A stretch of 64,000 nt of DNA, taken from contig CACYHR010000004.1 of the NCBI GenBank assembly GCA_902774265.1, forward strand, positions 110,426 through 174,425, read 5' to 3'. Both the position numbers and the translations under genes were made by a program. Below, piece after piece: positions 1 through 15,268 of this stretch (its first letter is position 1; each line of letters begins with the position of its first letter). Under the pieces are notes generated by a model that was not told the origin of the DNA, ran no database searches, and saw nothing but the letters and a program-made list of their open reading frames with translations. This DNA comes from an uncultured Eubacteriales bacterium. Lineage in GTDB: Bacteria > Bacillota > Clostridia > Peptostreptococcales > Anaerovoracaceae.

Positions 1-503
1 TCGGACAGGTATTCTTCGCAAAGAGGAATATGGAGTATTATGACCCGGCGTATACCGAGGGATACTCGTTCCCGCACAATGCGCCCGATAAGCTTCGGAT
101 CAAGCATATTGTCTGCCAGCACAAGGTCAGTGATCCCCTCCTCCTTTATCATGCGCTTCCATCTTTCGGGATCCCGCAGATCGGATATATGTACCATAGA
201 GACAGACGCCCCTGTCATGTTAAGAGCATAAAAGGCGATAACGGTCTCTGCCGCCGGCGTGCCGGTCATACCGACTCTTGCACCCCTCCTGCCGGTGATG
301 CCAAGCGCCGAAAACACCTCTGCATAAAGCTCCCATCTGCGAAACATCAGACGGTATGTGTAATCACAGCTTCCGTCCGAAAGGGCAACACAATCAAGGC
401 GCTCTTCGTCTGCCGAATTGAGCGCCCTGATAAACTGCCAGCATTTCTGATCCGCACTGACAGCATCTGTTATGTTTTCTTTTCTATTTGTTTTCTCCGC
501 CAT
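1..503 (-). CDS. Adenylate-forming (AMP-binding) enzyme, N-terminal part, cut by window edge
   Basis: About 167 codons of the N-terminal half of an AMP-dependent synthetase/ligase are present; the rest lies before base 1. The reading frame starts at the ATG at 503 and contains the block shared with the other four paralogues here: a QKxWxFI-xLNS opening, TYRxMFRxWELYAEVFSALGI, an ALNMTGASVSM helix and a SLGIRRVIILHIP strand. The P-loop and catalytic lysine would be beyond the edge. The start lies 20 bases inside the 3' end of the acidic Cys-repeat gene upstream, so the two are probably translationally coupled. Family members activate a carboxylate as acyl-AMP; the substrate cannot be told. Identity as a paralogue is firm, function is not. 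Confidence 0.8.
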   Translation of the reverse strand, partial: MAEKTNRKENITDAVSADQKCWQFIRALNSADEERLDCVALSDGSCDYTYRLMFRRWELYAEVFSALGITGRRGARVGMTGTPAAETVIAFYALNMTGASVSMVHISDLRDPERWKRMIKEEGITDLVLADNMLDPKLIGRIVRERVSLGIRRVIILHIPLCEEYLS

Positions 504-1104
504 CAGTCTCTGCTTTTACAGCATCATCTTTCTTTTCTGTTTTCTTTCTCGGAGCGGCCTTCTTTGGCGGTTCTTCCTTTTTTTCCGGCTCGTCCTTCTC
601 AGAAGGCTCTTCTTTCTTTGCAGGTTCGGGCTTCTTTGCCGCAGCTTTCTTTACAGGCTCCTTCTTCTCTGCCGCAGCAGCCTTCTCTGCAGGCTCTTCT
701 TTCTTTGCCGCGGAAGTCTTCTTAGCAGGTTCTTCCTTCTTTACAGGGTCAGGAGCTTCGTCGTCGTCATCGTCGTCATCATCGTCATCATCGTCGTCAT
801 CATCATCATAATCGTATTCTCTGAAGCACGGCGCGTCGTCGCAGGCTCTGCTGTCGTCATCATCTTCGTCGTCTAAATCATCATCATCATCGTCGTCTTC
901 TTCGTCATCATCGTCATCATCACGATTTTTGAAGCATGGCGCACTGTCGCAGGCTCTGCCATCTTCATCTTCGTCGTCTTCATCTTCGTCATCGTCTCTG
1001 AAGCACGGCGCACCATCGCAGGCAAAGCCTTCCTCTGCGAATTCCTCTGCTTTTTCGACCATTTCCGCAAAGCATGCTATTCCTCTTATCAGCTCACATA
1101 TCAT
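484..1104 (-). CDS. Acidic protein with three Ala-Cys-x3-Pro-Cys-Phe repeats and a Lys/Pro/Ala tail
   Basis: The protein has 206 residues and fits no family I recognise. A short N-terminal helix-like stretch (1-25, MICELIRGIACFAEM...) leads into three copies of a unit reading (GF/R)AC-D-xxPCF(R/K), with cysteine pairs at 29/34, 52/57 and 88/93. The units are separated by runs of Asp and Glu, including one of about 17 Asp near 99-115. Residues 119-206 are a Lys/Glu/Pro/Ala-rich low-complexity tail. The ATG at 1104 has a GGAGG six bases upstream. A sister protein with two units lies at 5264-5617, and both sit directly beside adenylation enzymes. Candidate roles are a multi-core peptide precursor, a thiol or metal carrier, or an acidic scaffold; none is proven. 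The Asp tract is encoded by GAY repeats and may slip. Confidence 0.75.
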   Translation of the reverse strand: MICELIRGIACFAEMVEKAEEFAEEGFACDGAPCFRDDDEDEDDEDEDGRACDSAPCFKNRDDDDDDEEDDDDDDDLDDEDDDDSRACDDAPCFREYDYDDDDDDDDDDDDDDDDEAPDPVKKEEPAKKTSAAKKEEPAEKAAAAEKKEPVKKAAAKKPEPAKKEEPSEKDEPEKKEEPPKKAAPRKKTEKKDDAVKAETDGGENK

Positions 1105-1212
1105 ACTGAACCTCCCTTTCCCCTATACTGTCTGCATTTCAGGCAGCTTCATAAGCCTTACCATATAAGTATTTACTATCAGACTTTCAGTCCTGTCAAA
1201 CGATCACAGAAG

Positions 1213-3054
1213 CTATCTTAAAACCCTTGTCATTTGTCCGGGAGCTGCTTCAGCCTTTACGAGTCTTATGTCTGTAAGAACACCATCGCTGTATTCTGCT
1301 TCTGTCCTGTAGGCTTTACCGCCTATCTCGTTATTCAGGATCTTATGTATATCTACTTTTCCGGACTCGTTATAAGGGATGTTATCCGTTATTACGCACC
1401 AGCTCGGAAGATTGTTATCTTTGATCCTGTCATCATATATGAAAACATTCTTCAGCGCCTGAATCAGCTTTGCTTTGCGATTTTTTGTCTCTCCTGCCAT
1501 CTGTACATAAAGAGCAGGCACTGTATCATGTTCTCTCTTATCAAGCACTGGCGCGATTCCGCAGCTTTCGATACCCGGCTGCTCCGCAACAGCGGTTTCA
1601 ACAAGTCCGGCATCGAACCTCTTGCCTGCCTGATTGACGAAATACTTGTTCGTCCTCCCTGCATAAGAGAGACTGCCGTCATCATTGACGAACACAAGGT
1701 CGTTTGTATCAATGTACAGATCGCCGTCTATTTCGACCAGATCAAAGTATTTCCTGCCATCTAAACACCCGCTGCTGATTCCCGCTGAAGACACCAAAAG
1801 ACCTCCCGTACGAGGTCCGTCCTCCGGATCATAATATTCGTTCGTATTCTCATCACGTATCTTAAGCTTAATACCGGGCAGAGGGTAGCCTATCATGCTC
1901 TTATCCGCATCAGGAGGTGAAAGCAGGCAGGCACCGCCGAGCTCTGTCATCCCGTATCCTACCGAAACCTTTGTATCCGTTCCGGATTCCTTCAGCAATT
2001 TATCAAATCTCTTTTTTGTGTCAATGGATACATAGCCTGCTCCTATGAATACGAATCTTATTTTTGAAAGATCGAACCTGAAAGGCAGCTTGCTCAAACG
2101 CTCAATATTAGAAGGCGTCACAAAGATAATATTTCCTCCGAATTGTACAACAGCTCTCAGACCATCACGACGAAAGTCTTTCAAAGGGACTGTCACCAGT
2201 TTCCCGCCGAATGCAAGCGGGAGGCACATCATATCAAAGAATGCATATCCCATTGAGATCTTCATAAACAGTACACATACCGCTGTACCCTTCATTGATT
2301 CGAATCTCTCATCTCGAAGCAGCCTTCGTGAACTTTCATTAAGAGCCCTGTCAGACATAGGAACGGGCTTGTGAACAGCAGTTGTGGTTCCCGATGTATG
2401 TACAATAAAAGCATCGTCCGACGATGCGCCGCTGCCATAGCTTATCGGAAAACCGCAGTACTCCTCAAGCAGATCCTCCATGAACAGCACGCCCCTGAAC
2501 CTTCTGAGTTTACGGTAATTCTCCTCCGCTTCCCATTTCTCGTAACAATCCAGAAAATCATCCCATTGCGGAACATGCATAAGTATGACATTGCGTATTC
2601 CGAGGGATATCCTTTCACACATTATCCGGTGCAGCAATTCGGGGCTGGTTCCGAAATCCGTTAGTATAAGATCTGTAATATGCTCTTCCTGAACGATATT
2701 CTTCCAGGCTTCCGTATCTTCAAGATCCATATCATATACCATAGACAGTGAGGCCCCCGTGATATTCAGGCCAAAGTATGCCGATATAGTCTCAACGCAC
2801 GGCACACCTGTCATTGCAGCTCTTGAATGGTTTTTTCCCGTAATTCCCAGGGCAGAGAATACCTCGGCAAAACGATCCCATTTGCGGAACATCTGACGGT
2901 AGGTATATTCTCTCTTACTGTCAACAAGAGCAACTCTGTTCAGGCTTTCTTCGCTGAATGAGTTGAGTTCCTTTATGAATTTCCAGTTCTTCTGTTCTAT
3001 TATAGCTCCGCTGCTCATTCTATCAGAGATCGTATCTAAATTGTTCAGAATCAT
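1213..3054 (-). CDS. Adenylate-forming (AMP-binding) enzyme, paralogue D
   Basis: This is a 613-residue member of the acyl-CoA synthetase/NRPS A-domain superfamily. Visible motifs are the P-loop HTSGTTT (about 219-225), YGMTE (367-371), the YIDTNDLVF block near 447-455 (canonical TGD changed to TND), the hinge block AGRTNKYFVNQAG, and the catalytic lysine in YNESGKVD (about 567). It should adenylate a carboxylic acid. No carrier-protein domain or phosphopantetheine site is seen, so the acceptor must be another molecule. The start has AGAGGTG upstream. It follows the remnant symporter by 20 bases and precedes the three-unit acidic gene by about 108. Substrate is unknown; fatty acid, amino acid or peptide carboxylate are all possible. 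Confidence 0.85.
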   Translation of the reverse strand: MILNNLDTISDRMSSGAIIEQKNWKFIKELNSFSEESLNRVALVDSKREYTYRQMFRKWDRFAEVFSALGITGKNHSRAAMTGVPCVETISAYFGLNITGASLSMVYDMDLEDTEAWKNIVQEEHITDLILTDFGTSPELLHRIMCERISLGIRNVILMHVPQWDDFLDCYEKWEAEENYRKLRRFRGVLFMEDLLEEYCGFPISYGSGASSDDAFIVHTSGTTTAVHKPVPMSDRALNESSRRLLRDERFESMKGTAVCVLFMKISMGYAFFDMMCLPLAFGGKLVTVPLKDFRRDGLRAVVQFGGNIIFVTPSNIERLSKLPFRFDLSKIRFVFIGAGYVSIDTKKRFDKLLKESGTDTKVSVGYGMTELGGACLLSPPDADKSMIGYPLPGIKLKIRDENTNEYYDPEDGPRTGGLLVSSAGISSGCLDGRKYFDLVEIDGDLYIDTNDLVFVNDDGSLSYAGRTNKYFVNQAGKRFDAGLVETAVAEQPGIESCGIAPVLDKREHDTVPALYVQMAGETKNRKAKLIQALKNVFIYDDRIKDNNLPSWCVITDNIPYNESGKVDIHKILNNEIGGKAYRTEAEYSDGVLTDIRLVKAEAAPGQMTRVLR

Positions 3055-3074
3055 CTTGCACCTCTGTCTGTCAT

Positions 3075-3456
3075 TTACTTCGCTTCTTTTTTAGCTAACG
3101 CTTCGGGATGTTTCTTTTCGAGATCGAAGAACACAACGAAAATTATCAATACCAATGTGAAACACGCACAAGGAACCCAGGAATACATAGTCTTGATAAC
3201 AGGGACGACGGATTCAGGCTGACTATCGAGAGCAGCATTGAAGCCGGCTAATGAAAGGCCGAAACCCAGCAAAATGGTCGCAGCACCCTGACCAAGCTTT
3301 ACTGCCGCAGAAACACAGGCATAACCCGCTCCTGCGATCAGTTTTCCGGTAGTATACTTTGTATACCTTACCTACTCCGCCTATACCGAATGCCGCATAT
3401 TCTCCGAAACCTATCTTGTCTTTCACTTCAATTTCTTTGTCTTTTGACTGTCTCAT
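3075..3456 (-). pseudogene. Remnant of a GPH-type (MFS) sugar symporter
   Basis: Only the two ends of a transporter survive. The first about 27 codons (from the ATG at 3456) encode the typical opening KIGFGEYAAFGIGGVG of GPH-family symporters. After a junction near 3352-3366 the sequence resumes, in another frame, with the last part of such a protein: a helix beginning GKLIAGAGYACVSAA, then LLGFGLSLAGFNA, a final hydrophobic segment and a charged tail ending AKKEAK at 3075. A normal family member has about 450 residues, so some 300 codons are missing. The junction holds the inverted repeat GTATAC-TTT-GTATAC. The gene lies between the MATE fusion and paralogue D and was presumably a transporter of this operon before deletion. 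Confidence 0.8.
3352..3366. repeat. Inverted repeat at the symporter deletion junction
   Basis: The 15-base sequence GTATAC-TTT-GTATAC is a perfect inverted repeat exactly where the N-terminal and C-terminal symporter pieces meet. It may be the scar of the deletion or of an excised element. Confidence 0.55.
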
Positions 3457-3478
3457 TACGAATTCTTCCCTTTGCTTT

Positions 3479-5245
3479 TTAAAGAGTTATTATCAGATTA
3501 TTCATCTCCATTGCGGCCATGTAATGGACATTCTTTGCCAGTCCTGTTACGACACGGATCCCGAGACCAGATACCGGATCATCTCCCGAATTCTTTTCGA
3601 GCCATCTGATCGGATCGAACGGTTTACCATCGTCCCTCATCCTTATAACACCGGAATCCCCGTGTAATATAAGCCTGAGATTCACATTCTTCTCTTCTCC
3701 TTCAGCGTATCCGTGTTCTATGGTATTCCCGGCCATTTCTTCTATAAACAACGCCATATGCACTGCCTGTTTCTTATCTATGCCTCTGTTTATGCAGAAA
3801 TTCCGCACTTCCTCTGATGAATTGATCACATCATTCATATCGTGCATGGATGCCTCATACAGTTCGTCGGGACTTGCCCCGAAATCATCACTGAGTATAA
3901 GAAAATCCGCTGCTTTCTTCGGAAAAGTCCCATTATATATTACAGGTATAATGCAGCACAGAATAAGCACCAGCACTCCGGAAAGTACAATCGCCGCCTC
4001 TACTCCGCGCAGGCCGAACAATTTGCCCAGCACAGTCACACAGATAACAGGAAAACCGGCCTCTCTCATTATATTGATCAGATAGTTCAATTTGAACTGA
4101 CGTGTGCCCTGATATATACCGGTGACAGGAAAACTGACCACCATGACAATGAACTGTACAGCCATCAGTCTGATGAAACGTGCAGCCTGAACCAGCGCAT
4201 CCGCAGAGTTTGTCTTTATAAACAATGCAGCCACAACTTTAGGGAACAGTAACATAAGCAGCGTGACTACACAGAAAATGCTCAGGGTGCTTTTTATCGA
4301 TATCGAAGTCACGGTTTCGAGTCCGTGCCTGTCCTCCTCACCGTAAAGCAGACTGCTTATTACGGAGGTGCTTACGAATATTCCCAGAGCTACCGCAAAA
4401 ACTATCGAGAAAGAACTGAAGCATACTGAGATCGCGGCAACAGCGCTTTTCCCGGCAATGGCCAGCAGAACAGCATTGTAGCACGCTGTTCGTAACGCCT
4501 GTCCTCCCATAGTGAGAGAACTCGGGGCTCCGCAGAGTACAATATCCTTTATATGCGAAGCATTAAAGTATTTCGGCGAGAATCGAAGCACACGGTTCTT
4601 TCTGAAAAAATGAGTCATCATGACCAGGAATCCTGCTACGCAGCTAAGTACTGTAGCGATGGCCATGCCAAACATTCCGCCGTGGAATATAATAACATTT
4701 GCGAGGTCGAAGATTATATCCATGACAAGCGTAGTTCCCATGCACATCATGCTGCGCCGCTTGTCATTATCTACGACCATAATACCTGCAAGCAGGATGT
4801 TGATACGCTGCGGCAGCAGACTGAAGCTGAAGCCTCTCAGATAATCGCTTATCATTCTTACTATCTCATCGCTTCCGGTGTTTCTTCCCAGCACGGACGC
4901 GATGACAGGTGCGCAAAAGAACACGATCGCATTCAGAGCAATTGTCAGCACAATCGAAATGAGCATAGATGTGCTGTACACCTGATTGACCTTGTCGTGC
5001 TGAGCTTTTCCGAGATATCTTGTCAGCAGTGTTCCGAGACCGCCCCCGAACAGAGTCACGACGAGATTGATGACCAATACTACCGGCTGCAGCAGTCCTG
5101 CCGCAGCAACCGCATCCTCACCCAGAAAGCGTCCGGTTACCATCGCATCTACCATTACACAGGCAATGCCCGATACGATACCGATCACATTAACGATCAG
5201 TATGCTGCTGTACATTTTTTTCAGCAAATTATTATCTGTACCCAT
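3479..5245 (-). CDS. MATE-family transporter fused to an RsbW/SpoIIAB-like ATPase domain
   Basis: The protein has 588 residues. Residues 1-430 hold about twelve hydrophobic segments in two related halves, matching MATE-type multidrug/Na+ antiporters and polysaccharide flippases. Residues 450-588 are a soluble GHKL ATP-binding domain of the anti-sigma serine kinase type, with an N-box (FIEEMAGNTIEHGY), a G1 box (RDDGKPFDP) and a G2 box (GLGIRVVTG). Fusions of this shape occur in gut Firmicutes, but I know of no characterised one. It starts 18 bases after the two-unit acidic gene, so a role in exporting or sensing the cluster's product is a reasonable inference. The ribosome site is weak (AGAGAAAAG). 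Domain assignment is solid; cargo and the ATPase's role are unknown. Confidence 0.87.
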   Translation of the reverse strand: MGTDNNLLKKMYSSILIVNVIGIVSGIACVMVDAMVTGRFLGEDAVAAAGLLQPVVLVINLVVTLFGGGLGTLLTRYLGKAQHDKVNQVYSTSMLISIVLTIALNAIVFFCAPVIASVLGRNTGSDEIVRMISDYLRGFSFSLLPQRINILLAGIMVVDNDKRRSMMCMGTTLVMDIIFDLANVIIFHGGMFGMAIATVLSCVAGFLVMMTHFFRKNRVLRFSPKYFNASHIKDIVLCGAPSSLTMGGQALRTACYNAVLLAIAGKSAVAAISVCFSSFSIVFAVALGIFVSTSVISSLLYGEEDRHGLETVTSISIKSTLSIFCVVTLLMLLFPKVVAALFIKTNSADALVQAARFIRLMAVQFIVMVVSFPVTGIYQGTRQFKLNYLINIMREAGFPVICVTVLGKLFGLRGVEAAIVLSGVLVLILCCIIPVIYNGTFPKKAADFLILSDDFGASPDELYEASMHDMNDVINSSEEVRNFCINRGIDKKQAVHMALFIEEMAGNTIEHGYAEGEEKNVNLRLILHGDSGVIRMRDDGKPFDPIRWLEKNSGDDPVSGLGIRVVTGLAKNVHYMAAMEMNNLIITL

Positions 5246-5263
5246 TTCTTTTCTCTTCTACCG

Positions 5264-5617
5264 TTAATCCTCATAATCATAATCCACATCAGAAGAATCG
5301 AACATGCATTTCAGAATATCACGCATAGGTCCTCCGCTCAGCATTCCGCCATGAGAATTATCTTCATTTTCATCTTCATTATCTTCTTCATCGGATTCTC
5401 TGAAGCAAGGCATTTCACCGCAGGCAAAGCCTTCTTCTTCCTCATCATCGTCATCTGCTTCATCTCTGAAGCAAGGTGCCTGACCGCATGCAAAACCATC
5501 TTCCTCATCCCCGGATTTCTTTGATCTGCGTTCCTCAGAGTCTTCTGCGCATCCGTTCAGCTCCTTGCTGATGAGGTCAAAAACATATGCAATATCCTCA
5601 AGAAAACCTTTATACAT
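5264..5617 (-). CDS. Acidic protein with two GFAC-x3-PCFR repeats
   Basis: A 117-residue protein of no known family. An N-terminal helix-like segment (MYKGFLEDIAYVFDLISKEL) is followed by a charged stretch, two units GFACGQAPCFR and GFACGEMPCFR (Cys 44/49 and 66/71) joined by Asp/Glu runs, and a tail with GGMLSGGPM, one more Cys and a Tyr/Asp-rich end. The architecture (short leader, repeated Cys units, acidic spacers) matches the larger protein at 484-1104, but without the Lys/Pro/Ala tail. The start has AGGAGG eight bases upstream. It lies 14 bases after the hydrolase-adenylation fusion and 18 before the MATE fusion, clearly one transcript. It could be a peptide precursor or carrier served by those enzymes. 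Confidence 0.8.
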   Translation of the reverse strand: MYKGFLEDIAYVFDLISKELNGCAEDSEERRSKKSGDEEDGFACGQAPCFRDEADDDDEEEEGFACGEMPCFRESDEEDNEDENEDNSHGGMLSGGPMRDILKCMFDSSDVDYDYED

Positions 5618-5631
5618 ATCAGTAAACCTCC

Positions 5632-8484
5632 TTACTCATCATAGTGTTTCTTCATATCTTTCGTCATGGCTTTTTTATCTGATTCTGCGAAATCATATTT
5701 CTCAAGACGGATATCCTTCAACACACCGTTTTCTCTTACCGGTACTATGCCGTAATGGATTCCGGATATCTTTTCCGTAGTGATCTTATAAACATCCACC
5801 TTTCCGCCGTCATTGTACGGTATATCTTTCGTGATGGTAAGATCAAACGGCAGATATGATTCAGATGCAAGATCCTGACCGATGAACACCTCTTTAAGAG
5901 CCTTTCTGGCTGCAGCTGCAGGATTTCCCGATCCTCTCCTGATCTTAAGATAAAGAGACGGGACTGTATCACGAATGATCCTTGAGAATCTCGGTGCTAT
6001 GCCGCAGTCTTCTATTTCCGGCTGAGCTGACAGCGCTCTTTCGACCGGACCGGCATCAAAGCGCACACCTTCATTGTTAATGAAGTATTTGTTCATTCTC
6101 CCTATGAAGTAATATGCTCCATCCTCTCTGACCTCGACCATATCATATGTGTTCAGATACTTTTCTCCGTCGATATCCACCAGCTCAAACAGGACCTTGT
6201 CATCCAGCCGTCCGCTGCTGATTGAAGGTGAGCAGATATGCATCACTCCCCTGCATGGTCCGTCGGCAGGATCTTTGAATTCATTCCGGTCTTCATCAAA
6301 CAGTTTTATCTTTACGCCCGGAAGAGGATAACCTATGGCATCATCCTTCCTGTCCGCATCAGACACTATCACAGCAGCCCCGGCCTCAGAATTGCCATAG
6401 CCTATTGTAACACCGGTCTTCGCTCCGCATTTCTTAAGATATTTATCGAATCTGCGCCTGGTATCAGCTGATATATATCCTCCGCCCGCAAATATCAGTT
6501 CTATAAATGACAGGTCAGGATGCACAGGAATCTCCATTAACATTTTCATAAAATGAGGCAATGTGAACAGTATGTTAGGACGGCAGTCCATGATTGCCTT
6601 AAATATTTTCACGCTGCCTTTCCCAGCATTCAATTCGATGTTTGGATAAACTATCACCTTTCCTCCGAATGCCAGCGGCAGATTGAGCATATCAAACATC
6701 GCATATGCTATTGAAAGCTCCATAAAGAGGCAGCTGGACACGCTGTTTCTGAGTTCTTCATAGCGGGGATCAGCAAGCATCCTTCTCGCTGACTCATTGA
6801 GCCCTCTGTCGGAAACAGGTACGGATTTGCGCTTACCCGTAGTTGTTCCCGAAGTATGTATTATAAATGCATCATCTCTGCACTCTTCCGAATAGCATAT
6901 CGGCGTCGCTTCATACTTTTTCAGCAGATCATCAAAGAACAGCACATCCGAAATCTTTTTCATTTCCTTATATTTACGGATGCTCTCTCTTTCCTCCCAT
7001 TCTTCCTTTGTCTTATCGAACAGAGGAATGTGGATCACTATAATGTTTCTGATCCCGAGATCGTCCTTTTCTGCTCTGATCTTTTTGAGCTGCCTGATTG
7101 AAAGCCCGCAGTCCGGCAGAATAAGATCCGTGATATTCTCCCGCTTCGCCATATCCCTGAGTTTTGACATATCATTGGACTGCTCGCGTATAAGCGAGAC
7201 CGAAGCGCCGGTCATGTTCAGCGCATACATAGCAGAGATTATCTCCGACGAAGGCATTCCTCTCATCATTACTCTGGAATGATCCTTTCCGGTCAGGCCA
7301 AGAGCAGAGAAGACCTCGGCATATCTCTCCCACTTACGGAACATCTGACGATAAGTGTATTCCCTCCTTCCGTCATCCAGCGCAACTGAATCAAGCCTGT
7401 CCCTGCTGTAGGAGTTCAGCTCTCGGATGAACTTCCAGCTCTTCTGCTCGATGATCTCTCCGTTTTCTATGCGTTTATTGATTTCATTCAGTGCTTCCTT
7501 CTCTGCTTCAAATCTCTTCAGATCTTCCTGATACTGCTCTGCCTGCTCTTCGAACCAGTCGACCATCCTGTCTATGGCATCTATGCTTTCAGACCTGTAG
7601 GGCTCGGTTGCAACGAAGGCATGGTTCAGATCGTCGCTGCCAAAGTACATTAAGTGTGACTTGCGCCCTGCCTTCTTAAGAGCATCGTGATACATCAGGG
7701 TGTAATTGTTAAGAAAGTCTCCTCTGCTTGTCGTGAGGAATACAGGCGGAAGATTCTTTATTATCTCCTCATGTTCAGGATCAAGATACTGGCGGAAGTT
7801 TTCATCTGCTTCCTTATCCCCGTACAACTGATCTGCCAGCAGCCATCCGATCGGATCATCAAGTTCTGTATAGAACATACCGCAGTGAAGTCCGAGTGCA
7901 TGAAAATACATTTTCGTCGGTTCATATCCTATGGCTTCCTGCAGCTTTTCTGAATTCTTCATAGCTGCTACATATGTTGCGAGATATGCACCGGCGCTCT
8001 CCGCCGTCAGGAACATTCTCGAAAAATCAACATTAAAGTCAACGAGTCTGCGTCCTATACAGTCCATGCCCGCACATACATCATCGAGCTGCTCACAGGC
8101 ATTTGCCCTCGGTGCCAGACGGTATTCGATTGAAAATACCAAATACCCCCTGGATGCAAGCGATCTCGCATATACTCTTGACATTTTACGGTCGCCGATA
8201 ACAAGTCCGCCGCCGTGTATGACGACTATTACCGGTAGTTCTGTGTCCTCATCCACTACAGGTTTGAATATATCCATAGCAAGAGGAACCTCATCCCTGT
8301 TCATGTAAGCGTTATTGAGGATGTCCTCGACTTCATACTTTGCCTTAGGACTGATCTTTTCAGGTTCCGGAATCTCTCTTTCTCTTCTTTTTTTTAGCCT
8401 TTCTCCCTGCATACGCTCAAGAAACGTACGGACAATTTCTTTGCACAGGATGCCATTCTCAGCGTAACTGTTTTTATTGCTCAT
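5632..8484 (-). CDS. Fusion of an HSL-type alpha/beta-hydrolase with an adenylate-forming enzyme (paralogue C)
   Basis: The protein has 950 residues. Residues about 50-320 form an alpha/beta-hydrolase of the hormone-sensitive-lipase type: oxyanion motif HGGG (90-93), nucleophile motif AESAGA (Ser 163, where most relatives have GDSAGG), acid near Asp 256 in SRGDFL and His 288 in DLNHAF. A charged helical linker follows, then from about 345 a complete adenylation domain with HTSGTTTG, GYGNSEAG, YLNTYDMV, the hinge GRMNKYFINNEG and the catalytic lysine in YNDGGKVD. The hydrolase may release or transfer what the adenylation domain activates. A stand-alone copy of the hydrolase is at 12351-13247, so fusion or fission happened within this cluster. 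The start has AGGAG upstream and follows paralogue B by 23 bases. Confidence 0.87.
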   Translation of the reverse strand: MSNKNSYAENGILCKEIVRTFLERMQGERLKKRREREIPEPEKISPKAKYEVEDILNNAYMNRDEVPLAMDIFKPVVDEDTELPVIVVIHGGGLVIGDRKMSRVYARSLASRGYLVFSIEYRLAPRANACEQLDDVCAGMDCIGRRLVDFNVDFSRMFLTAESAGAYLATYVAAMKNSEKLQEAIGYEPTKMYFHALGLHCGMFYTELDDPIGWLLADQLYGDKEADENFRQYLDPEHEEIIKNLPPVFLTTSRGDFLNNYTLMYHDALKKAGRKSHLMYFGSDDLNHAFVATEPYRSESIDAIDRMVDWFEEQAEQYQEDLKRFEAEKEALNEINKRIENGEIIEQKSWKFIRELNSYSRDRLDSVALDDGRREYTYRQMFRKWERYAEVFSALGLTGKDHSRVMMRGMPSSEIISAMYALNMTGASVSLIREQSNDMSKLRDMAKRENITDLILPDCGLSIRQLKKIRAEKDDLGIRNIIVIHIPLFDKTKEEWEERESIRKYKEMKKISDVLFFDDLLKKYEATPICYSEECRDDAFIIHTSGTTTGKRKSVPVSDRGLNESARRMLADPRYEELRNSVSSCLFMELSIAYAMFDMLNLPLAFGGKVIVYPNIELNAGKGSVKIFKAIMDCRPNILFTLPHFMKMLMEIPVHPDLSFIELIFAGGGYISADTRRRFDKYLKKCGAKTGVTIGYGNSEAGAAVIVSDADRKDDAIGYPLPGVKIKLFDEDRNEFKDPADGPCRGVMHICSPSISSGRLDDKVLFELVDIDGEKYLNTYDMVEVREDGAYYFIGRMNKYFINNEGVRFDAGPVERALSAQPEIEDCGIAPRFSRIIRDTVPSLYLKIRRGSGNPAAAARKALKEVFIGQDLASESYLPFDLTITKDIPYNDGGKVDVYKITTEKISGIHYGIVPVRENGVLKDIRLEKYDFAESDKKAMTKDMKKHYDE

Positions 8485-8507
8485 TTTTTAGTCCTTTCTC
8501 CTGTTAT

Positions 8508-10379
8508 CTAACCGAAGAACTGATCGCAGCCCATTCCGCTGTATCCGTCTTCGCAGGCTTTGATATAAAAATCAATGTCCGCAAGCCGTCCCTCACTGCA
8601 GACAGCTTCAACAGTATACACCGTCCCTTTCACATAACCTTTTGTTATAAGGTTTATATCGACCTTTCCGGTCGCGTTATACGGCAGATTATCCGTTATA
8701 ACGCATTCCTTAGGAAGCTGATCAGGATCAAACTCATCCCGATCGGCAAAAGCGGAGATCAATGCGTCCTTAACGATCGTTCTGACACGGCTTCCATATC
8801 CGTTTGCCTGTACATACAGCACAGGTATCGTGTCATATATCTCCTTATCGTATTTTGGTACGATAGCGCACGCCTCTATGCCATCCTGCTTTGATACCGC
8901 AGTTTCTATCACACCGGCATTGAATTCGACTCCCTCGTTGTTCGCAAAGAAGCGATTCATCCTTCCGGCATATGTTATCGTCCCGTCACCGTTCGTTACA
9001 ACGAGATCATATGTACAGATATACTGCTTTCCGTCGATCTCTGTTGTTTCAAAGAACACATTATCGCCTATACGCCCGCCGCTGATAAAATCCGATGAGA
9101 TATACAGTCCGCCTGTTCTCGGGCCGTCGTCGAGGGTATAGAAATTGCCGTTATCCTCATCGTATATGCGTACTTCTACGCCCGGGAGCGGTCTTCCTAT
9201 AGTATCCGCCGCATCCGATCCCGTATCAGGCAGCATGCAGGCTCCTCCGGCCTCGGACAGGCCGTATCCGCTGACAGCCTTAACATGACCGCCGTGCTTT
9301 CTTATGAAACTGTTGATGCGGCTCAGCATATCCGGAGAAACATACGAACCTCCGAGCGTCACGAGCTCAAGACTCGAAAAATCAAAAGACTTGCCTGAAG
9401 GATAATCCATCCATTCCTCGAACTGCTGCGAGCTCGTAAGCAGCACGTTTATTTTATATTTCTTTATCGCACTGTGAAAACCCGGATTAAAACCGCCCAT
9501 AGGTATCATGATATTGGTGAGTCCGAGAGCGAGCGGCACATGCACCATATCTACCATACTGTATGCAGCAGTCATTTCCTTAGTCATAGCCGTTACGCCG
9601 CCGTCTCTGAATCCCTGAAACATTTCGTGCTTCATCATGCTCAGAGCTGCGCTGTTCAGCGCAAAGTCCGAAAGCGGAATAGGTTTATGTATGCCCTTTG
9701 TAGTGCCCGATGTGTGAGTTATTACAGCCGTTTCATCATTTCTTTTGCGGCTTTCGGCATAGCTTGTCGCCTCGTATATATCAAAAAGATCCTCCATGAG
9801 CTTTACGTCAGGACAGATGCGTACGATCCAATCGTAAAGCTTAGTCTGCAGCCTCTCGACGGGAGCAGCATAAGGTCCGTCGACAAACGCCGGCAGCACG
9901 ATCGCGTTTCTGATCCCCAGATCATCCTTGTTTTCAGACAGCAGGCGAAGCTGTCCCGGCCATGCGTAAGTCTCCGCAAAGATAAGGTCTGTTATCCCTT
10001 CCTTGCGAATGGTATCACACCAGCGCTCCTCGTCGTGAGACTCCTCTACCGGTATCATCGAGACAGAAACGCCCAGCATATTGAGCGCATAAAAAGCTAT
10101 TATGCACTCTGCCGAAATGTTTCCGGTCATCCCGACACGTGAGCCGTTATGCTCTGTTATGCCCAGAGAAGCGAAAACCTCGGCATATCTGTCCCAGTTA
10201 CGAAAGAGCTGGCGATATGTGTACTTGCGTCTGCCGTCTCTCAGAGCGACCCGCCCAAGGCGTTCCTCGCTGTATGAGTTCAGTTCCTTAACGAATTTCC
10301 ACGCCTTCTGGTCCGCTATAGTCCCTCTGCTTATACGTCCGTTGATTATCTGCAGCTTATCTGCTTCCTTCTTTGTCAT
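8508..10379 (-). CDS. Adenylate-forming (AMP-binding) enzyme, paralogue B, with C-terminal YSGMGCD tag
   Basis: The enzyme has 623 residues from the ATG at 10379, which I prefer over an in-frame TTG at 10400 because GGAGATGG lies just upstream. Motifs are HTSGTTKG, GYGLSEAGG, the ICTYDLV block, AGRMNRFFANNEG and the catalytic lysine in YNATGKVD. The last residues, GYSGMGCDQFFG, are not part of the usual fold and closely resemble the first residues of paralogue A (DKYSGMGCDCNFF), suggesting a shared docking or modification tag. It heads the leftward operon continuing through 8484-5632 and beyond. Substrate unknown. The 250 bases upstream carry the divergent amidohydrolase promoter and a dispersed repeat. 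Confidence 0.85.
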   Translation of the reverse strand: MTKKEADKLQIINGRISRGTIADQKAWKFVKELNSYSEERLGRVALRDGRRKYTYRQLFRNWDRYAEVFASLGITEHNGSRVGMTGNISAECIIAFYALNMLGVSVSMIPVEESHDEERWCDTIRKEGITDLIFAETYAWPGQLRLLSENKDDLGIRNAIVLPAFVDGPYAAPVERLQTKLYDWIVRICPDVKLMEDLFDIYEATSYAESRKRNDETAVITHTSGTTKGIHKPIPLSDFALNSAALSMMKHEMFQGFRDGGVTAMTKEMTAAYSMVDMVHVPLALGLTNIMIPMGGFNPGFHSAIKKYKINVLLTSSQQFEEWMDYPSGKSFDFSSLELVTLGGSYVSPDMLSRINSFIRKHGGHVKAVSGYGLSEAGGACMLPDTGSDAADTIGRPLPGVEVRIYDEDNGNFYTLDDGPRTGGLYISSDFISGGRIGDNVFFETTEIDGKQYICTYDLVVTNGDGTITYAGRMNRFFANNEGVEFNAGVIETAVSKQDGIEACAIVPKYDKEIYDTIPVLYVQANGYGSRVRTIVKDALISAFADRDEFDPDQLPKECVITDNLPYNATGKVDINLITKGYVKGTVYTVEAVCSEGRLADIDFYIKACEDGYSGMGCDQFFG

Positions 10380-10510
10380 AAACCATCTCCGATATTGCAA
10401 CTATATATTCCCTTTAACTATATCACAGATATTCATTATCTGGCACAGTCATTAGCATCTATTATGCAAAAAGAATGTTACACTTAAGTAAACACCTTGA
10501 GTCGTATATA

Positions 10511-10544
10511 AAGCGAGCTTGTTGGAGCTTTGCTCCTGGTTGAA
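10511..10544 (+). repeat. 34-base dispersed repeat with GGAGC-TTT-GCTCC hairpin (copy 1)
   Basis: This stretch is identical over 34 bases to the reverse complement of 63905-63938, some 53 kb away, and contains the short hairpin GGAGC-TTT-GCTCC. It lies between two divergent genes. Confidence 0.75.
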
Positions 10545-10590
10545 CTGATGATAAGAAGAGTGATATCTTTTAAAAACGTACTCTGAATGG

Positions 10591-10596
10591 TATAAT
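10591..10596 (+). promoter_or_regulatory. Probable extended -10 promoter of the amidohydrolase gene
   Basis: TGG-TATAAT matches an extended -10 element. The base 17 upstream region offers only a poor -35 (TTTTAA). Transcription would start near 10603, giving a leader of about 40 bases before the AGGAG-preceded ATG at 10646. Confidence 0.5.
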
Positions 10597-10645
10597 TTGC
10601 TTAATTCAATTACTCAGAACATTATTTTGATCAGGAGAATCAGCA

Positions 10646-11923
10646 ATGAGAAAAAGACATTATCTTAAAACAGCATTTGTAGGAGGCCAGCTGATAACCG
10701 GCAGGCACAAGGATGCCATACAGGATTCACTGGTAATGATTGACCGCGGCGGGATCATTTATGCCGGCGAACGCAATTATGATATGGCTCCGAGTCTTGA
10801 AGGCTTTGATGTCGTAGACATCACCGGAAAGACCCTCATGCCGGGTCTTATCGATACGCATCTTCATTTCAGCGGCAATCTCAATGACAATGATTCCGAC
10901 TGGGTCAGAGAGCCTCTCCTTCAGAAGCAGGTCATGGCTGTTCAGCAGGCTCATGAATGCCTTGAAAACGGTCTCACTTCAGTAGGCGAAATTTCCAGAT
11001 TCGGTATCCCTATCAGAGATATGGTCAATACCGGTCAGATGCAGGGACCGAGGATCATTGCTTCCGGCAGAGGCTTTTGCGCCACAGCATCGCACGGCGA
11101 TTCGCATAACTGCTCCATTGAAGAAGTAGCTGCCGGTCATCCATGGGCAGAGACAGTGGACGGACCATGGGAACTCCGTAAGGCGGTAAGACGCAGACTC
11201 AGAGAATGCCCTGATGCCATCAAAATCTGGGCAACAGGCGGCGGTATCTACAGATGGGATACCTCCCGTGATCACCATTACACATTCGAAGAAATAAAGG
11301 CTGTCGTAGATGAGTCTGCTATGAGAGGGATCCCGGTATGGTCTCACACTTACGGAGCAGTAACACCTTCGGTCGATGCGGGTGCTGATTTCATTATCCA
11401 CGGATTTGAGATCAATGACGATGATATGGAGAAAATGTTCATTAAGGGCATATATTTCTGCCCGACGATCAACTTCCTGCCGGCATGGCTGTCGACTTAT
11501 CCTCCGTCATACATTCCGGGTGTGCATGACAAATACGAAGGTGCAACTCTGATCGACAAGGAACTCGCTAGACTTTATGACAATGTCAACAAAGCCTATA
11601 AAATGGGTGTCATAATCACTGTCGGATCCGACAGCTTCAATTCTGATTCAACGCCTTACGGAGTCACAGCTATAGGCGAGATACACAGATTCGTGGATTC
11701 ATGCGGAATGAGCGAGATGGATGCTATCATAGCCGGTACGGCAAACGGTGCCAGGGCGCTCGGATGCTATCATCTTACCGGTTCCATCACCAGAGGCAAA
11801 AATGCCGACATGCTGTTGATCAACGGAGATCCGCTGAAAAACATCTATGACATCAGTGTAGAAAACATGGATATGATCATCAAGGACGGCGAAGAGGTTC
11901 TTCGTTACAAGGATAAGAAGTAA
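10646..11923 (+). CDS. Metal-dependent amidohydrolase (imidazolonepropionase/prolidase-like)
   Basis: The protein has 425 residues and the layout of the amidohydrolase superfamily: a small beta-sandwich N-terminus, then a TIM barrel. Metal ligands are visible: HxH in DTHLHF (72/74), a probable carbamylated lysine in AIKIWATGG (Lys 193), His 234 in VWSHTYG, His 252 in IIHGFEI and an Asp in VGSDSF. Relatives hydrolyse imidazolone propionate, Xaa-Pro or acylated-lysine dipeptides and related cyclic or peptide amides. No signal peptide is seen. It is on the opposite strand to the surrounding adenylation cluster and pairs with the small gene starting at 11942. ATG preceded by AGGAG. Substrate not identifiable. 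Confidence 0.88.
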   Translation: MRKRHYLKTAFVGGQLITGRHKDAIQDSLVMIDRGGIIYAGERNYDMAPSLEGFDVVDITGKTLMPGLIDTHLHFSGNLNDNDSDWVREPLLQKQVMAVQQAHECLENGLTSVGEISRFGIPIRDMVNTGQMQGPRIIASGRGFCATASHGDSHNCSIEEVAAGHPWAETVDGPWELRKAVRRRLRECPDAIKIWATGGGIYRWDTSRDHHYTFEEIKAVVDESAMRGIPVWSHTYGAVTPSVDAGADFIIHGFEINDDDMEKMFIKGIYFCPTINFLPAWLSTYPPSYIPGVHDKYEGATLIDKELARLYDNVNKAYKMGVIITVGSDSFNSDSTPYGVTAIGEIHRFVDSCGMSEMDAIIAGTANGARALGCYHLTGSITRGKNADMLLINGDPLKNIYDISVENMDMIIKDGEEVLRYKDKK

Positions 11924-11941
11924 TGCGGGAGGTACAGTGCT

Positions 11942-12244
11942 ATGATGAACAATGATATTAATCAGTTGCGTAAAGAGATCGGACAGGTCCTTACCACGCA
12001 GTACGATTATCCGCCAAACGGAATGGGTTCACTCGGTTATAAAGGGAACAATATGTACAGATTCAAGGTGGATGATCTCGGAGACATAATGCTTTTTTTG
12101 GCTGAAAGAACCGAATCGTACAGTCACTCATATAATGTCGACATGCTTGCTCAGGAGATAATCACGGATCTGCTTGATCAGGGGCTGATCTGTTACGGCG
12201 GCTATAGATTCAAGCAGCAGCAGAAAGAACGCCACAGCATCTGA
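11942..12244 (+). CDS. Small hypothetical protein downstream of the amidohydrolase
   Basis: The protein has 100 residues, is soluble, and I recognise no family. The start overlaps a GGGAGG-type ribosome site 18 bases after the amidohydrolase stop, so it is cotranscribed. Notable are a Gly/Tyr/Asn-rich middle (PPNGMGSLGYKGNNMY) and a C-terminal half that looks alpha-helical (MLAQEIITDLLDQGL). A role as a partner or regulator of the amidohydrolase is only a guess. A hairpin terminator follows about 65 bases later. Confidence 0.7.
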   Translation: MMNNDINQLRKEIGQVLTTQYDYPPNGMGSLGYKGNNMYRFKVDDLGDIMLFLAERTESYSHSYNVDMLAQEIITDLLDQGLICYGGYRFKQQQKERHSI

Positions 12245-12309
12245 TGCCGCCATCAGGGCAAGAGCTCAGGGCAAAGCAGTGAAACAGCAAATTTAATCAA
12301 TTAAAAAAA

Positions 12310-12342
12310 CGGACTGCCGCACTTATGAAGTGAGGCGGTCCG
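12310..12342. terminator. Bidirectional hairpin terminator
   Basis: A stem of 13 positions (arms 12310-12322 and 12330-12342, with wobbles) encloses a 7-base loop. On the minus strand it is followed by seven Ts, and on the plus strand by CTTTATT. It lies between convergent genes and can serve both. Confidence 0.8.
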
Positions 12343-12350
12343 CTTTATTA

Positions 12351-13247
12351 TTATACTGATGCTTCAAACCACTCGCATATTTTATCAAGGGCATCCCTGC
12401 TCTCGGGCAGATACGGCCTTAAGTTAACAAATGCATGGGTCAGTTCTTTGTTTTTCTGTCCGTAATACAGAAATCTGCACTTATTACCTGCAGCTTTCAA
12501 AGCGCGATAATACTGTTTGCTTGCTTTTTTCAGAGGATCTGCGCGGCTGCTCGTTAATATCGCAGGAGGGAGACAGCTTATTACTCTACTGTTCTCAGGA
12601 TCCATATATGACATAAATGTCTTATCCTTCCTGAGTTCTCTGAAAATAGCCTTCGGATAAAGCAGTCCTATGAAATTCTTTTTCGTTGTGTAAAACATAC
12701 CGCTTACAAACGCCAGCGCCTTAAGGTCAAGCCGCGAAGATCTGCATCCGAGAATATTGCTCAGCTCCGGCGAGCGGGCTGATGCTGCAGCGTACAGTCC
12801 GAGGAATGCGCCGGCGCTCTCCGCTATCATAAACGCTCTGTCCGGATCACCGCCTCTTTCTTCGAGGGCATCGGCTGCAAAATCGAGTGCAGCGCAGATG
12901 TCCGAAATCTCGCCCGGAGCATCCGCTTCATCCATCATGCGGTATGACGGAGCAAACACAAGATATCCCTTTCCGGCAAGCAGTTCGCATACATCCCGTT
13001 CCATAATCGGTTTTCCTAAAAAAAGTCCTCCCCCATGCAGGAGTACGATCACGGGAAGCTTCTCCCCGCGGCATTCTTTCGGTCTGTATATATCCGCATA
13101 AAGATCATTTCCGTCTCTCCCGCTGTAAGTGACATTGAATTCCTCAATTATGTCATCAGGCGCTTCATGCTCCCACTTATGCCGGTCAGTATGTCCGGCT
13201 ATCTTCCTTCTGATATGCCTTGCATATTTGTACATCAATGGTTCCAT
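12351..13247 (-). CDS. Alpha/beta-hydrolase, HSL family, stand-alone
   Basis: The protein has 298 residues and is the same type as the N-terminal half of the fusion at 5632-8484. It has the HGGG oxyanion motif (71-74), AESAGAF nucleophile motif (Ser 144), an Asp near 243 in SRADPL and a His in ELTHAFV near 273. The Glu in AESAG, instead of the usual Asp in GDSAG, is shared with the fused copy and marks a common origin. Probable esterase, thioesterase or peptide hydrolase acting in the cytoplasm (no signal peptide). It follows paralogue A by 68 bases and ends at the bidirectional terminator. Confidence 0.87.
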   Translation of the reverse strand: MEPLMYKYARHIRRKIAGHTDRHKWEHEAPDDIIEEFNVTYSGRDGNDLYADIYRPKECRGEKLPVIVLLHGGGLFLGKPIMERDVCELLAGKGYLVFAPSYRMMDEADAPGEISDICAALDFAADALEERGGDPDRAFMIAESAGAFLGLYAAASARSPELSNILGCRSSRLDLKALAFVSGMFYTTKKNFIGLLYPKAIFRELRKDKTFMSYMDPENSRVISCLPPAILTSSRADPLKKASKQYYRALKAAGNKCRFLYYGQKNKELTHAFVNLRPYLPESRDALDKICEWFEASV

Positions 13248-13315
13248 ACTATCCCGTTCTTCCTTCCTCGAATTTTTTTATTATTTGTCAGGAAAGGTCT
13301 TTCCGGACTGCTTTG

Positions 13316-15268
13316 TCATTCTGTATCGAGTTCTTCCGGAAGACCTGTTTCTGCAAATACTGATCTGCTATGAGTCACAAGCCTTATATCTTTCAGTACG
13401 CCGTCACGTCTGACAGGTATAACATTATAGCGGTATCCTTCAACATCTCCGGTCACGATCTGATGATTATCCACCTTACCGGAAGCATTATACGGTATAT
13501 CATCCGTGATAACACACTCTAACGGGAGATTAGACTCTTTTATAACTCCGTCTGTGATAAAAGCTCCTCTCAATGCATTTATGACCGCATGTTTTGCGCT
13601 GTCTGCAGGTAGTGTTGCCTTAACATACAGTACCGGGATCGTATCACGGATGCGTTTGCTGTATCCGGGCACAAGTCCGCAGCTCTCGATCTTTGGCTGC
13701 GCAGAAACTGCATTTTCCACAAGTCCTGCATCAAAACGCACGTTATCGTTATTGACAAAAAATTTGTTCATCCTTCCGGCATAGTAGAAAACGCCCTCTT
13801 CGTCCGTCTTTACATAATCAAAAGTATTCAGATACTTCTCTCCTTCAATCTCTTCAAGCTCAAAAATCGTCTTATCGCCCAGTTTGCCCGAACTGACAGA
13901 TGGAGAACTGATATACATTATACCCTCTGCCGGTCCGTCTGCCGGATCAAGGAAACGTCCGCTTTCTTCATCAAAAAGTCTTATTTTTATTCCATCCACA
14001 GGACGACCTATAGCATCGTCCTCTCTGTCAGAAGATGAAATTATGCAGGCTCCTCCGGCCTCAGAGAGTCCGTATCCTATCGTCACGCGCGCTTTTGAGC
14101 CGCATCTCTTAAGATATCTGTTATATCTATTCCTCGCATCTGCGGAGGCATACGAGCCTCCGAGGAATATAAATTCAAGATCGCTGAGATCCGGGCGGTA
14201 AGGCAGTTTCATCAGCATTTCCATTATGACAGGTCCGCCGAATAAAACATTGACACGGTAATACGATATAGCCCTCAATGTATCTATATTGAACCCGCCT
14301 GTCGACATAACAGCGATCCTGCCTCCGAATGCAAGAGGAAGAACAAGTTCATCGCACAGAGCATAAGCCGAGCCAAGCTCAGCGGCCAGAAATGCCGAAG
14401 CTCTGCCGTACAGAGATTCAAATCTGCTGTCTGCAAGAAGTCTCGCAGATGTCTCATTGATGCCTCTGTCCGACAGCGGAACAGGTTTGCTGGCACCTGT
14501 CGTCGTTCCGGATGTATGCGCGATCATCGCAGCATCGTCACATTCTGTCTGAGCATAAACTATATCTTCGTTCTTATATTTTTTCAGAAGTTCGTCCATA
14601 AAGAGTACGCCCTGTATACTCTTCAGTTCATCATATTTCATCAGAGCAAACATTTCCTCAAAGGGATTGGCAAATTCACCAAAAACAGGGATATGAATAA
14701 CTATCACATTCCTGATTCCGAGTTCATCTTTTTCCTCCATGAGCTGTTTCAGGTATTTTTTGCTCAGATCATAGTCAGGCAAAATGATATCTGTTATGTT
14801 CTCGTTCTGATCCATTCCCCTGAGTCCGTCAATATTGTTTGCACTTCTCATAAGGCTTATGGAAACAGACGCACCCGTCATATTCAGCGCAAACAAAGCC
14901 AGAATGATCTCTGCGGCAGGCGTGCCTCTCACTGCAACTCTTGCATGCTCTTTTCCTGTCATGCCAAGAGTCGAAAACACTCTCGCATAACGTTTCCATT
15001 TCCTGAACATCTGGCGGTAGGTGTACTGCCGCCTTCCGTCTACAAGCGCAACAGCGTCAAGCCTTTCATCGCTGTATGAATTCAGCTCCTTTATAAACTT
15101 CCAGCATTTCTGTTCGATGATCTCTCTGCTTTCAATACGTTTTCTGATCTCGTCAGGAATAACGCGGGCTGCAGTACTTATTCCGGCATCCGCTGCATAG
15201 TCCGGACCATCCGGACATGAAAAGAAATTACAATCGCATCCCATACCGCTGTATTTATCGTTGATCAT
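13316..15268 (-). CDS. Adenylate-forming (AMP-binding) enzyme, paralogue A, with N-terminal Cys-rich tag
   Basis: The protein has 650 residues. It opens with an unusual stretch, DKYSGMGCDCNFFSCPDG, with three cysteines; the first half matches the C-terminal end of paralogue B. From about residue 40 it is a normal adenylation domain: QKCWKFIKELNSYS, HTSGTTTG, IGYGLSEAGG, YLNTFDYV, AGRMNKFFVNNDN and the catalytic lysine in YNASGKVD. It should form an acyl-AMP; the acceptor is unknown. It is the first gene of the leftward group and is followed by the stand-alone alpha/beta-hydrolase, the same pair of activities as in the fusion. Start ATG at 15268 has AAAGGA upstream. Confidence 0.86.
   Translation of the reverse strand: MINDKYSGMGCDCNFFSCPDGPDYAADAGISTAARVIPDEIRKRIESREIIEQKCWKFIKELNSYSDERLDAVALVDGRRQYTYRQMFRKWKRYARVFSTLGMTGKEHARVAVRGTPAAEIILALFALNMTGASVSISLMRSANNIDGLRGMDQNENITDIILPDYDLSKKYLKQLMEEKDELGIRNVIVIHIPVFGEFANPFEEMFALMKYDELKSIQGVLFMDELLKKYKNEDIVYAQTECDDAAMIAHTSGTTTGASKPVPLSDRGINETSARLLADSRFESLYGRASAFLAAELGSAYALCDELVLPLAFGGRIAVMSTGGFNIDTLRAISYYRVNVLFGGPVIMEMLMKLPYRPDLSDLEFIFLGGSYASADARNRYNRYLKRCGSKARVTIGYGLSEAGGACIISSSDREDDAIGRPVDGIKIRLFDEESGRFLDPADGPAEGIMYISSPSVSSGKLGDKTIFELEEIEGEKYLNTFDYVKTDEEGVFYYAGRMNKFFVNNDNVRFDAGLVENAVSAQPKIESCGLVPGYSKRIRDTIPVLYVKATLPADSAKHAVINALRGAFITDGVIKESNLPLECVITDDIPYNASGKVDNHQIVTGDVEGYRYNVIPVRRDGVLKDIRLVTHSRSVFAETGLPEELDTE

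Follow-up and report, generated by a model that had tools for sequence, protein, structure and literature searches.

How a run of adenylate-forming ligases, serine hydrolases and small acidic Cys-repeat proteins comes to be encoded side by side, and what such a set may do, is the question raised by a 64,000-nucleotide stretch of DNA from an uncultured Eubacteriales bacterium of the Anaerovoracaceae (GenBank assembly GCA_902774265.1, contig CACYHR010000004.1, here contig C4, positions 110426–174425). We call this whole stretch the window and use its own coordinates; it comes from a draft genome of 3.26 Mb that is 90.8% complete. The clustering of ligases, hydrolases and acidic Cys-repeat proteins is real, and the small acidic proteins belong to the ligase system. 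The reading we favour, to which we give a probability of roughly one half, is an assembly for the activation and hydrolysis of acids, held in order by scaffolds of a phasin-like or condensate-like kind. We found no description of such a ligase/repeat-scaffold system among the open-licence papers searched, and the parts of a rumen gene-cluster survey that were available (PMC8241843) make no mention of adenylation, nonribosomal peptide synthetase (NRPS)-like genes, low complexity or Mogibacterium.

An earlier note, made from the letters of the window, had described five adenylation enzymes of one lineage, two hydrolases with an AESAGA nucleophile and two acidic repeat proteins with three and two Cys units, all on one strand and mostly separated by short gaps. 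Most of this description stands. The five ANL ligases all match PF00501 (122.8–135.5 bits) and fall into one deep clade, the other four being 40–48% identical to ligase 4 (1213–3054, 613 residues), which retains its catalytic residues. Ligase 1 (13316–15268, 650 residues) carries the N-terminal Cys motif YSGMGCDCNFFSC, and ligase 2 (8508–10400, 630 residues) has the C-terminal sequence YSGMGCDQFFG, which in its orthologue L069:5010-6875 reads SSGMGCDQLFG. Ligase 5 (1–503; PF00501 E 7.2e-38, 47% identity to ligase 4) is cut at the window edge, and its complete copy of 620 residues is L011:1067-2929. The remaining ligase is part of an HSL-type hydrolase-ligase fusion (5632–8484, 950 residues; PF07859 E 9.5e-21, PF00501 E 1.9e-35) with HGGG, AESAG and HAF motifs. 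Both hydrolases are thus present with HGGG and AESAG, but one of them is the N-terminal domain of this fusion and only the other (12351–13247, 298 residues) stands alone. The acidic proteins are a beta-type protein ('MICE'; 484–1104, 206 residues) with three units, related to proteins in L039, L040, L043 and L069, and an alpha-type protein ('MYKGF'; 5264–5617, 117 residues) with two, and the ribosome-binding sites of both genes are good, GGGAGG for beta and AAGGAGG for alpha. All of these genes are on the minus strand, with intergenic gaps of 14–23 bases across 10400–3479, but a divergent amidohydrolase and a 100-residue open reading frame (ORF) lie on the plus strand at 10646–12244, inside the cluster range.

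The note had further treated the repeat proteins and the adenylation enzymes as a single system, and their distribution bears this out. When genome contigs were scanned with aligned N-terminal regions of the ligases, 37 loci came up, which by their labels belong to 32 genomes; this is a minimum, as a locus had to match at least one of a pair of short peptide patterns exactly, and the named loci span at most 20.6 kb, so that counts of neighbours are too low. Within the genus, a profile search found the alpha protein in 4 of 47 genomes (G000, G394, G401 and G435), each with this type of ligase cluster, and in 0 of the 42 ligase-free genomes; in the fifth ligase carrier, G399, which has only the type-II cassette discussed below, alpha was not found. 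The hypergeometric probability for 4/5 versus 0/42 is about 3e-5, calculated by hand and uncorrected for relatedness, genomes of one genus not being independent. In a sample of the order, alpha was present in 3 of 393 genomes, every one of them ligase-positive. In the window, L039, L040, L043 and L069 alike, the ligase that comes directly after the beta-type gene is the same orthologue. A MarR-type gene directly precedes the beta-type gene at L039:15131-15568 (checked with Pfam), L040:9935-10372 and L069:10824-11312.

Sequence elements are also shared between the small proteins and the enzymes. The alpha protein ends in the tag CMFDSSDVDYDYED (F-x-A-S...Y-E-D), and the same tag ends low-complexity ligase tails in L042, L046, L048, L050, L052 and L074, as well as small free-standing proteins encoded next to ligases in L045, L047 and L053; it thus occurs both fused and free, and in two phyla. 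A regular expression for the tag, composed after the sequences had been seen, matched 17 ORFs in the 37 loci and the window, namely nine ligases (three of them via its loosest branch alone) and eight small proteins beside ligases, and none in the reversed proteins. An MGCD-type unit is likewise common to the small proteins and the termini of ligases 2 and 1, and recurs at ligase termini in L032, L039, L041 and L069. Between the conserved ends the sequence is hypervariable by lineage (MGCDQKPEKE, MPQGMGC as in MPQGMGCANN, NPMQGYGQ, PHPQMP, MMGCMPDMSK or PQ-rich); some tails have many Cys residues, and there is none in 370 residues in L049 or 518 residues in L052. In the alpha protein, the extreme C-terminus is conserved to the same degree as the N-terminus, with variable repeats in between. 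With the tag on fused tails and small proteins alike, hypervariable repeats between conserved ends, and Cys missing in several lineages, the small proteins have the look of ligase tails that stand on their own, and both a splitting-off and a gain by fusion are possible directions. Low complexity as such is no clean marker: a 60-residue entropy below 2.75 bits was found in 8 of 75 ligases and in 13 of 385 other ORFs, the latter being five small proteins of the system, two NRPS genes of C4, four antisense frames and two unrelated ORFs.

These observations bear directly on the note's own proposal, that the enzymes act on the repeated units or load something onto them and that the MATE fusion exports the result. 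In one form of it, the small proteins would be ribosomal peptide precursors with several cores, which the adenylating enzymes modify and the MATE protein exports. A short helical N-terminus followed by repeated Cys units would suit a precursor, a MATE gene is adjacent, and the top NCBIfam match of the adjoining amidohydrolase (10646–11923) is an Xaa-Pro dipeptidase family, albeit at 202.7 bits against a cut-off of 500. The precursor reading is nevertheless unsupported, because the repeats are also embedded in the tails of whole ligases and the alpha C-terminus is as conserved as the N-terminus. Furthermore, Pfam identified an enzyme of the type that modifies ribosomally synthesised peptides in none of 12 cluster and flanking proteins, and the amidohydrolase, the sole peptidase-like neighbour, is absent from the protein clusters common to at least three loci. 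We therefore regard precursors of this kind as very improbable.

The repeat units themselves are more than a chance pattern. The beta protein consists of an amphipathic N-terminus, three [G/S]-x-A-C-D-x2-P-C-F units, poly-Asp runs and a K/E/P/A-rich tail, and the alpha protein of an amphipathic N-terminus, two GFACGxxPCFR units and the tag. Searched as a coding pattern over the whole genome, AC-x3-PCF exceeds chance, with eight matches against none for the reversed pattern; five of the eight lie in the two acidic proteins and three in non-acidic reading frames. The two-Cys form of the unit, seen in the window proteins, is not constant among relatives: the second Cys is present in 14 of 26 units across 10 alpha/beta proteins, and 10 of the 12 missing cases are in L041. 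As the 26 units were located through their first Cys, the constancy of that residue within units is no independent evidence. AC-x3-PC units in an acidic context could also be expected of C-x4-C metal-binding proteins that supply metal to the enzymes, but with the second Cys missing so often this is extremely unlikely; ANL and HSL enzymes, moreover, are not known to require a transition metal. Comparing L039 with L040, dN/dS is 0.09 for alpha and 0.17 for beta, alongside 0.05–0.18 for four neighbouring genes, and it is 0.12 for beta between the window and L069; such ratios indicate that the alpha/beta relatives evolve under purifying selection. The hydrophobic moment of the N-terminus lies at the 90th–99.6th percentile in six of the seven alpha/beta N-termini tested, the window beta protein being at the 99.6th. 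Neither window protein matches any Pfam family, including the PP-binding domain of acyl and peptidyl carrier proteins and the phasin domains.

The ligases, on their part, look active. In an alignment of 79 ligase domains, from which rows with fewer than 380 aligned residues and the duplicate loci L035 and L099–L102 had been dropped, all 79 rows retain the A5 Glu, A7 Asp and A8 Arg, and the A10 Lys is found in 77 of the 77 that are ungapped there and the A3 Lys in 77 of 79; since these residues are retained, the ligases are likely to be catalytically competent, and dead paralogues are not evident. The labels on the corresponding tree are crude, being set by lengths, and L049 is called hydrolase-A owing to its long N-terminal part. 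The PF00501 fold together with these five residues places the proteins in the ANL superfamily, alongside acyl/aryl-CoA ligases, DltA and NRPS adenylation domains, from which the low-complexity tails, the tag and the hydrolase fusion set them apart. Among solved structures, NRPS adenylation domains, DltA, luciferases, luciferase-type fatty-acyl-CoA synthetases, 4-coumarate ligases and beta-aminoacyl-ACP synthetases come closest. At the equivalent of GrsA Asp235, which we take to be the position that marks alpha-amino-acid specificity in adenylation domains, a hand alignment of uncertain register has Tyr in most type-I rows and non-acidic residues in type-II rows, with an acidic residue five positions earlier. 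The hydrolases have HGGG and the S-A-G nucleophile in 30 of 31 cases, both window copies included, as expected of HSL-type enzymes (Abhydrolase_3), from which they differ in often being fused to a ligase; a narrow expression for the His region matches 24 of the 31, L041:8993 matches no motif, and the stand-alone hydrolase finds esterases in the PDB down to E 5e-20.

Such enzymes could also make up an ordinary acyl- or aryl-CoA ligase and esterase cluster, for instance one that takes up and activates esters, plant phenolic or other, in the ruminant gut; the acidic proteins would then be fast-evolving and peripheral. The closest solved or curated families are indeed fatty-acyl/aryl-CoA ligases, DltA and NRPS adenylation domains; HSL esterases are present, GPH transporters occur in 8 of 44 loci, the MarR-type gene is found in L039, L040 and L069, and the hosts are largely ruminant-gut bacteria. 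On the other hand, the tags recur in two phyla, the alpha/beta genes are under purifying selection and, apart from the Met-rich protein, there is no neighbour common to at least three type-II loci. Moreover, the four ligases scanned against NCBIfam are far below the cut-offs shown. We thus consider an ordinary cluster possible, if rather unlikely.

The type-II cassette extends the comparison and brings in the likeness to phasins. Further ligases of the clade are encoded elsewhere in the window's genome, on contigs C33 (with the N-terminal Cys motif FTGMGCDMLPCIFDPCDESEDEDD), C94 (partial) and C20. C20 carries the type-II cassette, comprising a ligase with a Met-rich tail, a second ligase, a 145-residue Met-rich protein and a hydrolase-ligase fusion; the tail of the first consists of MMGCMPDMSK repeats and a KPA-rich end. 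Three of 14 type-II tails match Phasin_2 (best E 0.0018), one matches Phasin (0.041) and two match histone-like HC2 (best 7e-7). Type-II Met-rich small proteins with NPMQFMN-type repeats are also found at L058:11868-12506, L062:4483-5082, L065:2641-3249 and L059:14642-15226, with a conserved C-terminal IPPExLxKLMQMDMSPENLxKLQKFLDF; two shorter Met-rich relatives have no match in NCBIfam. The C33 ligase is followed by an SDF-type symporter whose N-terminus is much extended (L032:3942-5546).

In its composition the gene set resembles the coat of the Pseudomonas medium-chain-length polyhydroxyalkanoate (PHA) granule, which, according to the parts of PMC5658603 and PMC2959000 available, includes the phasins PhaF and PhaI, PhaC, PhaZ and the acyl-CoA synthetase ACS1; both combine a ligase and an alpha/beta-hydrolase with proteins that are amphipathic and probably disordered, and with basic tails resembling AAKP. 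It differs in having several ligases per cluster, tails fused to ligases and marginal phasin similarity. Furthermore, PHA synthase (PhaC) was found in none of 19 carriers (the window's own genome and 18 others) by a search whose control matched 1 of 14 genomes, that of Caulobacter, and a search of the window's genome for encapsulin (PF04454), whose control matched 3 of 14 genomes, gave nothing. With neither PhaC nor encapsulin found, we take the set to work as a granule-bound or condensate-bound assembly for acyl activation and hydrolysis would, and not to be a PHA granule. A search for wax/triacylglycerol synthase (PF03007) in the same 19 carriers gave no match and is uninformative, as no control matched either.

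The scaffold reading proposes the following. The ligases would convert carboxylic acids to acyl-adenylates and probably then to thioesters, as their chemistry is read from homology, and the HSL-type hydrolases, one of them ligase-fused, would act on acyl esters or thioesters by cleavage or transfer. Both acidic repeat proteins would be scaffolds and not substrates, equivalent to the tag-ended tails that ligases carry covalently elsewhere. Docking, either to enzymes or to a hydrophobic surface, would be the task of their amphipathic N-terminal helices and of the F-x-A-S...Y-E-D tag, while multivalent assembly of a phasin-like or condensate-like kind would come from the repeats and charged blocks. 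The tails are probably disordered, and the small proteins probably hold the enzymes together; a granule or droplet would be the form that such an assembly takes.

Several results weigh against this reading. First of all, no known granule core is available, because PHA synthase was not found in the 19 carriers. Second, the phasin matches are below the Pfam cut-offs and limited to type-II tails, and other helical families equal them (BAR_3 at 0.0011 and an ATG17-like family at 0.0027, one tail each); the sole NCBIfam match of the beta protein is a tRNA ligase model, at E 5e-4 and of the low-complexity type. Third, amphipathicity is uneven: the L041 alpha N-terminus reaches only the 60th percentile, and the four tag regions tested, at the 42nd–79th, are not strongly amphipathic. 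In addition, alpha is under looser constraint between the window and L069 (dN/dS 0.37), evolving faster among distant relatives. Finally, none of the 10 alpha/beta proteins examined lacks an [AG]C[DGE] unit, a constancy that a purely generic scaffold would not need.

This last point would be explained if the Cys residues were themselves acyl carriers, the ligases loading acyl groups onto Cys of the tails and repeats and the serine hydrolases removing or transferring them. As described in the available parts of PMC8301110, LuxE takes the acyl group of acyl-AMP and passes it to a C-terminal Cys, acting together with the serine transferase LuxD; here, too, a serine hydrolase is paired with an adenylate-forming enzyme, and the MGCD-type Cys unit is common to the small proteins and the termini of separate ligases. 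Unlike in the Lux system, a LuxC-type fatty-acid reductase is not among the cluster proteins scanned, and a conserved acceptor Cys near the C-terminus is not a general feature, as Cys is absent or variable in the tails. It is lacking from those of L049, L052, L055, L058 and L063, and at the equivalent position of the type-II repeat (MGC/MGG/MGS-MPDMSK) the window's genome has Cys, L060 Gly and L066 Ser. With tails that are free of Cys, a Cys carrier is not what the loci have in common, and as an account of the whole system it is improbable. The window's branch may differ, and for it we keep a Cys-acceptor role in view, given the LuxD/LuxE precedent and the MGCD-type unit at its ligase termini.

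The ligase set is rare and scattered. With the window's genome counted, the clade is present in 5 of 47 genomes of the genus, 2 of 148 of the family (a figure that rests on a single-protein query), 4 of 393 of the order and 2 of 391 of the class. By record label, carriers belong to the Anaerovoracaceae, Lachnospiraceae, Oscillospiraceae, Eubacteriaceae, Coriobacteriaceae and Atopobiaceae, and this patchy presence in two phyla, Bacillota and Actinomycetota, suggests horizontal spread of the gene set. The sample labels of the 32 carrier genomes name ruminants or the rumen in nine cases and 'RUG' bins in 12, with 11 naming neither; taking 'RUG' to stand for rumen uncultured genomes, the hosts are largely ruminant-gut bacteria by record labels. 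Butyrivibrio sp. LC3010, which carries both cluster types (L059 and L074), and Lachnospiraceae bacterium NE2001 are probably cultured isolates, as their records call them neither metagenome-assembled nor uncultured.

Other genes in and around the cluster complete the picture of the locus. Between alpha and ligase 4, on the minus strand, lie a MATE transporter with a C-terminal HATPase_c_2 fusion (3479–5245, 588 residues; PF01554 E 1.6e-33, PF13581 E 3.8e-15) and a decayed GPH/MelB-type transporter (3084–3456), recognised by tblastn with the L044 and L039 transporters, whose two ends are retained in different frames and whose middle is deleted. MATE relatives occur in 9 of 44 loci, the HATPase domain having been scanned in the window copy, and fuller relatives of the remnant adjoin ligases in L032, L039, L040 and L044. 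A SpoIIE phosphatase with a 5TM sensor is encoded near the cluster (L010:16432-18501), and the transporters, such as the MATE-HATPase_c_2 fusion, may be connected to a partner-switching signal. We considered and rejected an NRPS-linked product: NRPS genes lie about 8–23 kb away on the same contig, NRPS-like genes occur in L049, L056 and L061 and L042 has an NRPS-type adenylation protein, but the other loci gave no match of this kind. About 10 kb outside the window, C4 encodes an NRPS protein with two PP-binding matches, a long QMCTP run and GFGAP repeats (L010:9426-10727) and a condensation-domain protein with N-terminal GGWGNQGWPQQ repeats and a cNMP-binding domain near its end (L010:7067-9349). 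Within the window, 38427–49031 encodes a protein of 3534 residues with 16 Cna_B and two Flg_new stretches. Identical stretches of 55 and 24 bp are shared by the end of C4 (63905–63985) and the start of C33 (L032:1-158), probably a repeat that broke the assembly.

What these findings mean is, first, that an uncharacterised ligase clade is now linked to a probable scaffold that changes fast and is found both as ligase tails and as separate proteins. Between ends that stay the same, the repeats take on many chemistries, which amounts to a natural experiment on how low-complexity regions organise bacterial metabolism and, with probable isolates among the carriers, localisation, substrate and knock-out tests look feasible. 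A bolder version, which we think unlikely but worth stating, is that a self-contained gene set of ruminant-gut Bacillota and Actinomycetota builds a membraneless metabolic body in which detachable disordered scaffolds concentrate the ANL ligases and a serine hydrolase, with the Cys units acting as protein-bound acyl acceptors in one branch. If this were true, such a body would count as an organelle for acyl processing in bacteria, with no relation to PHA granules, encapsulins or microcompartments.

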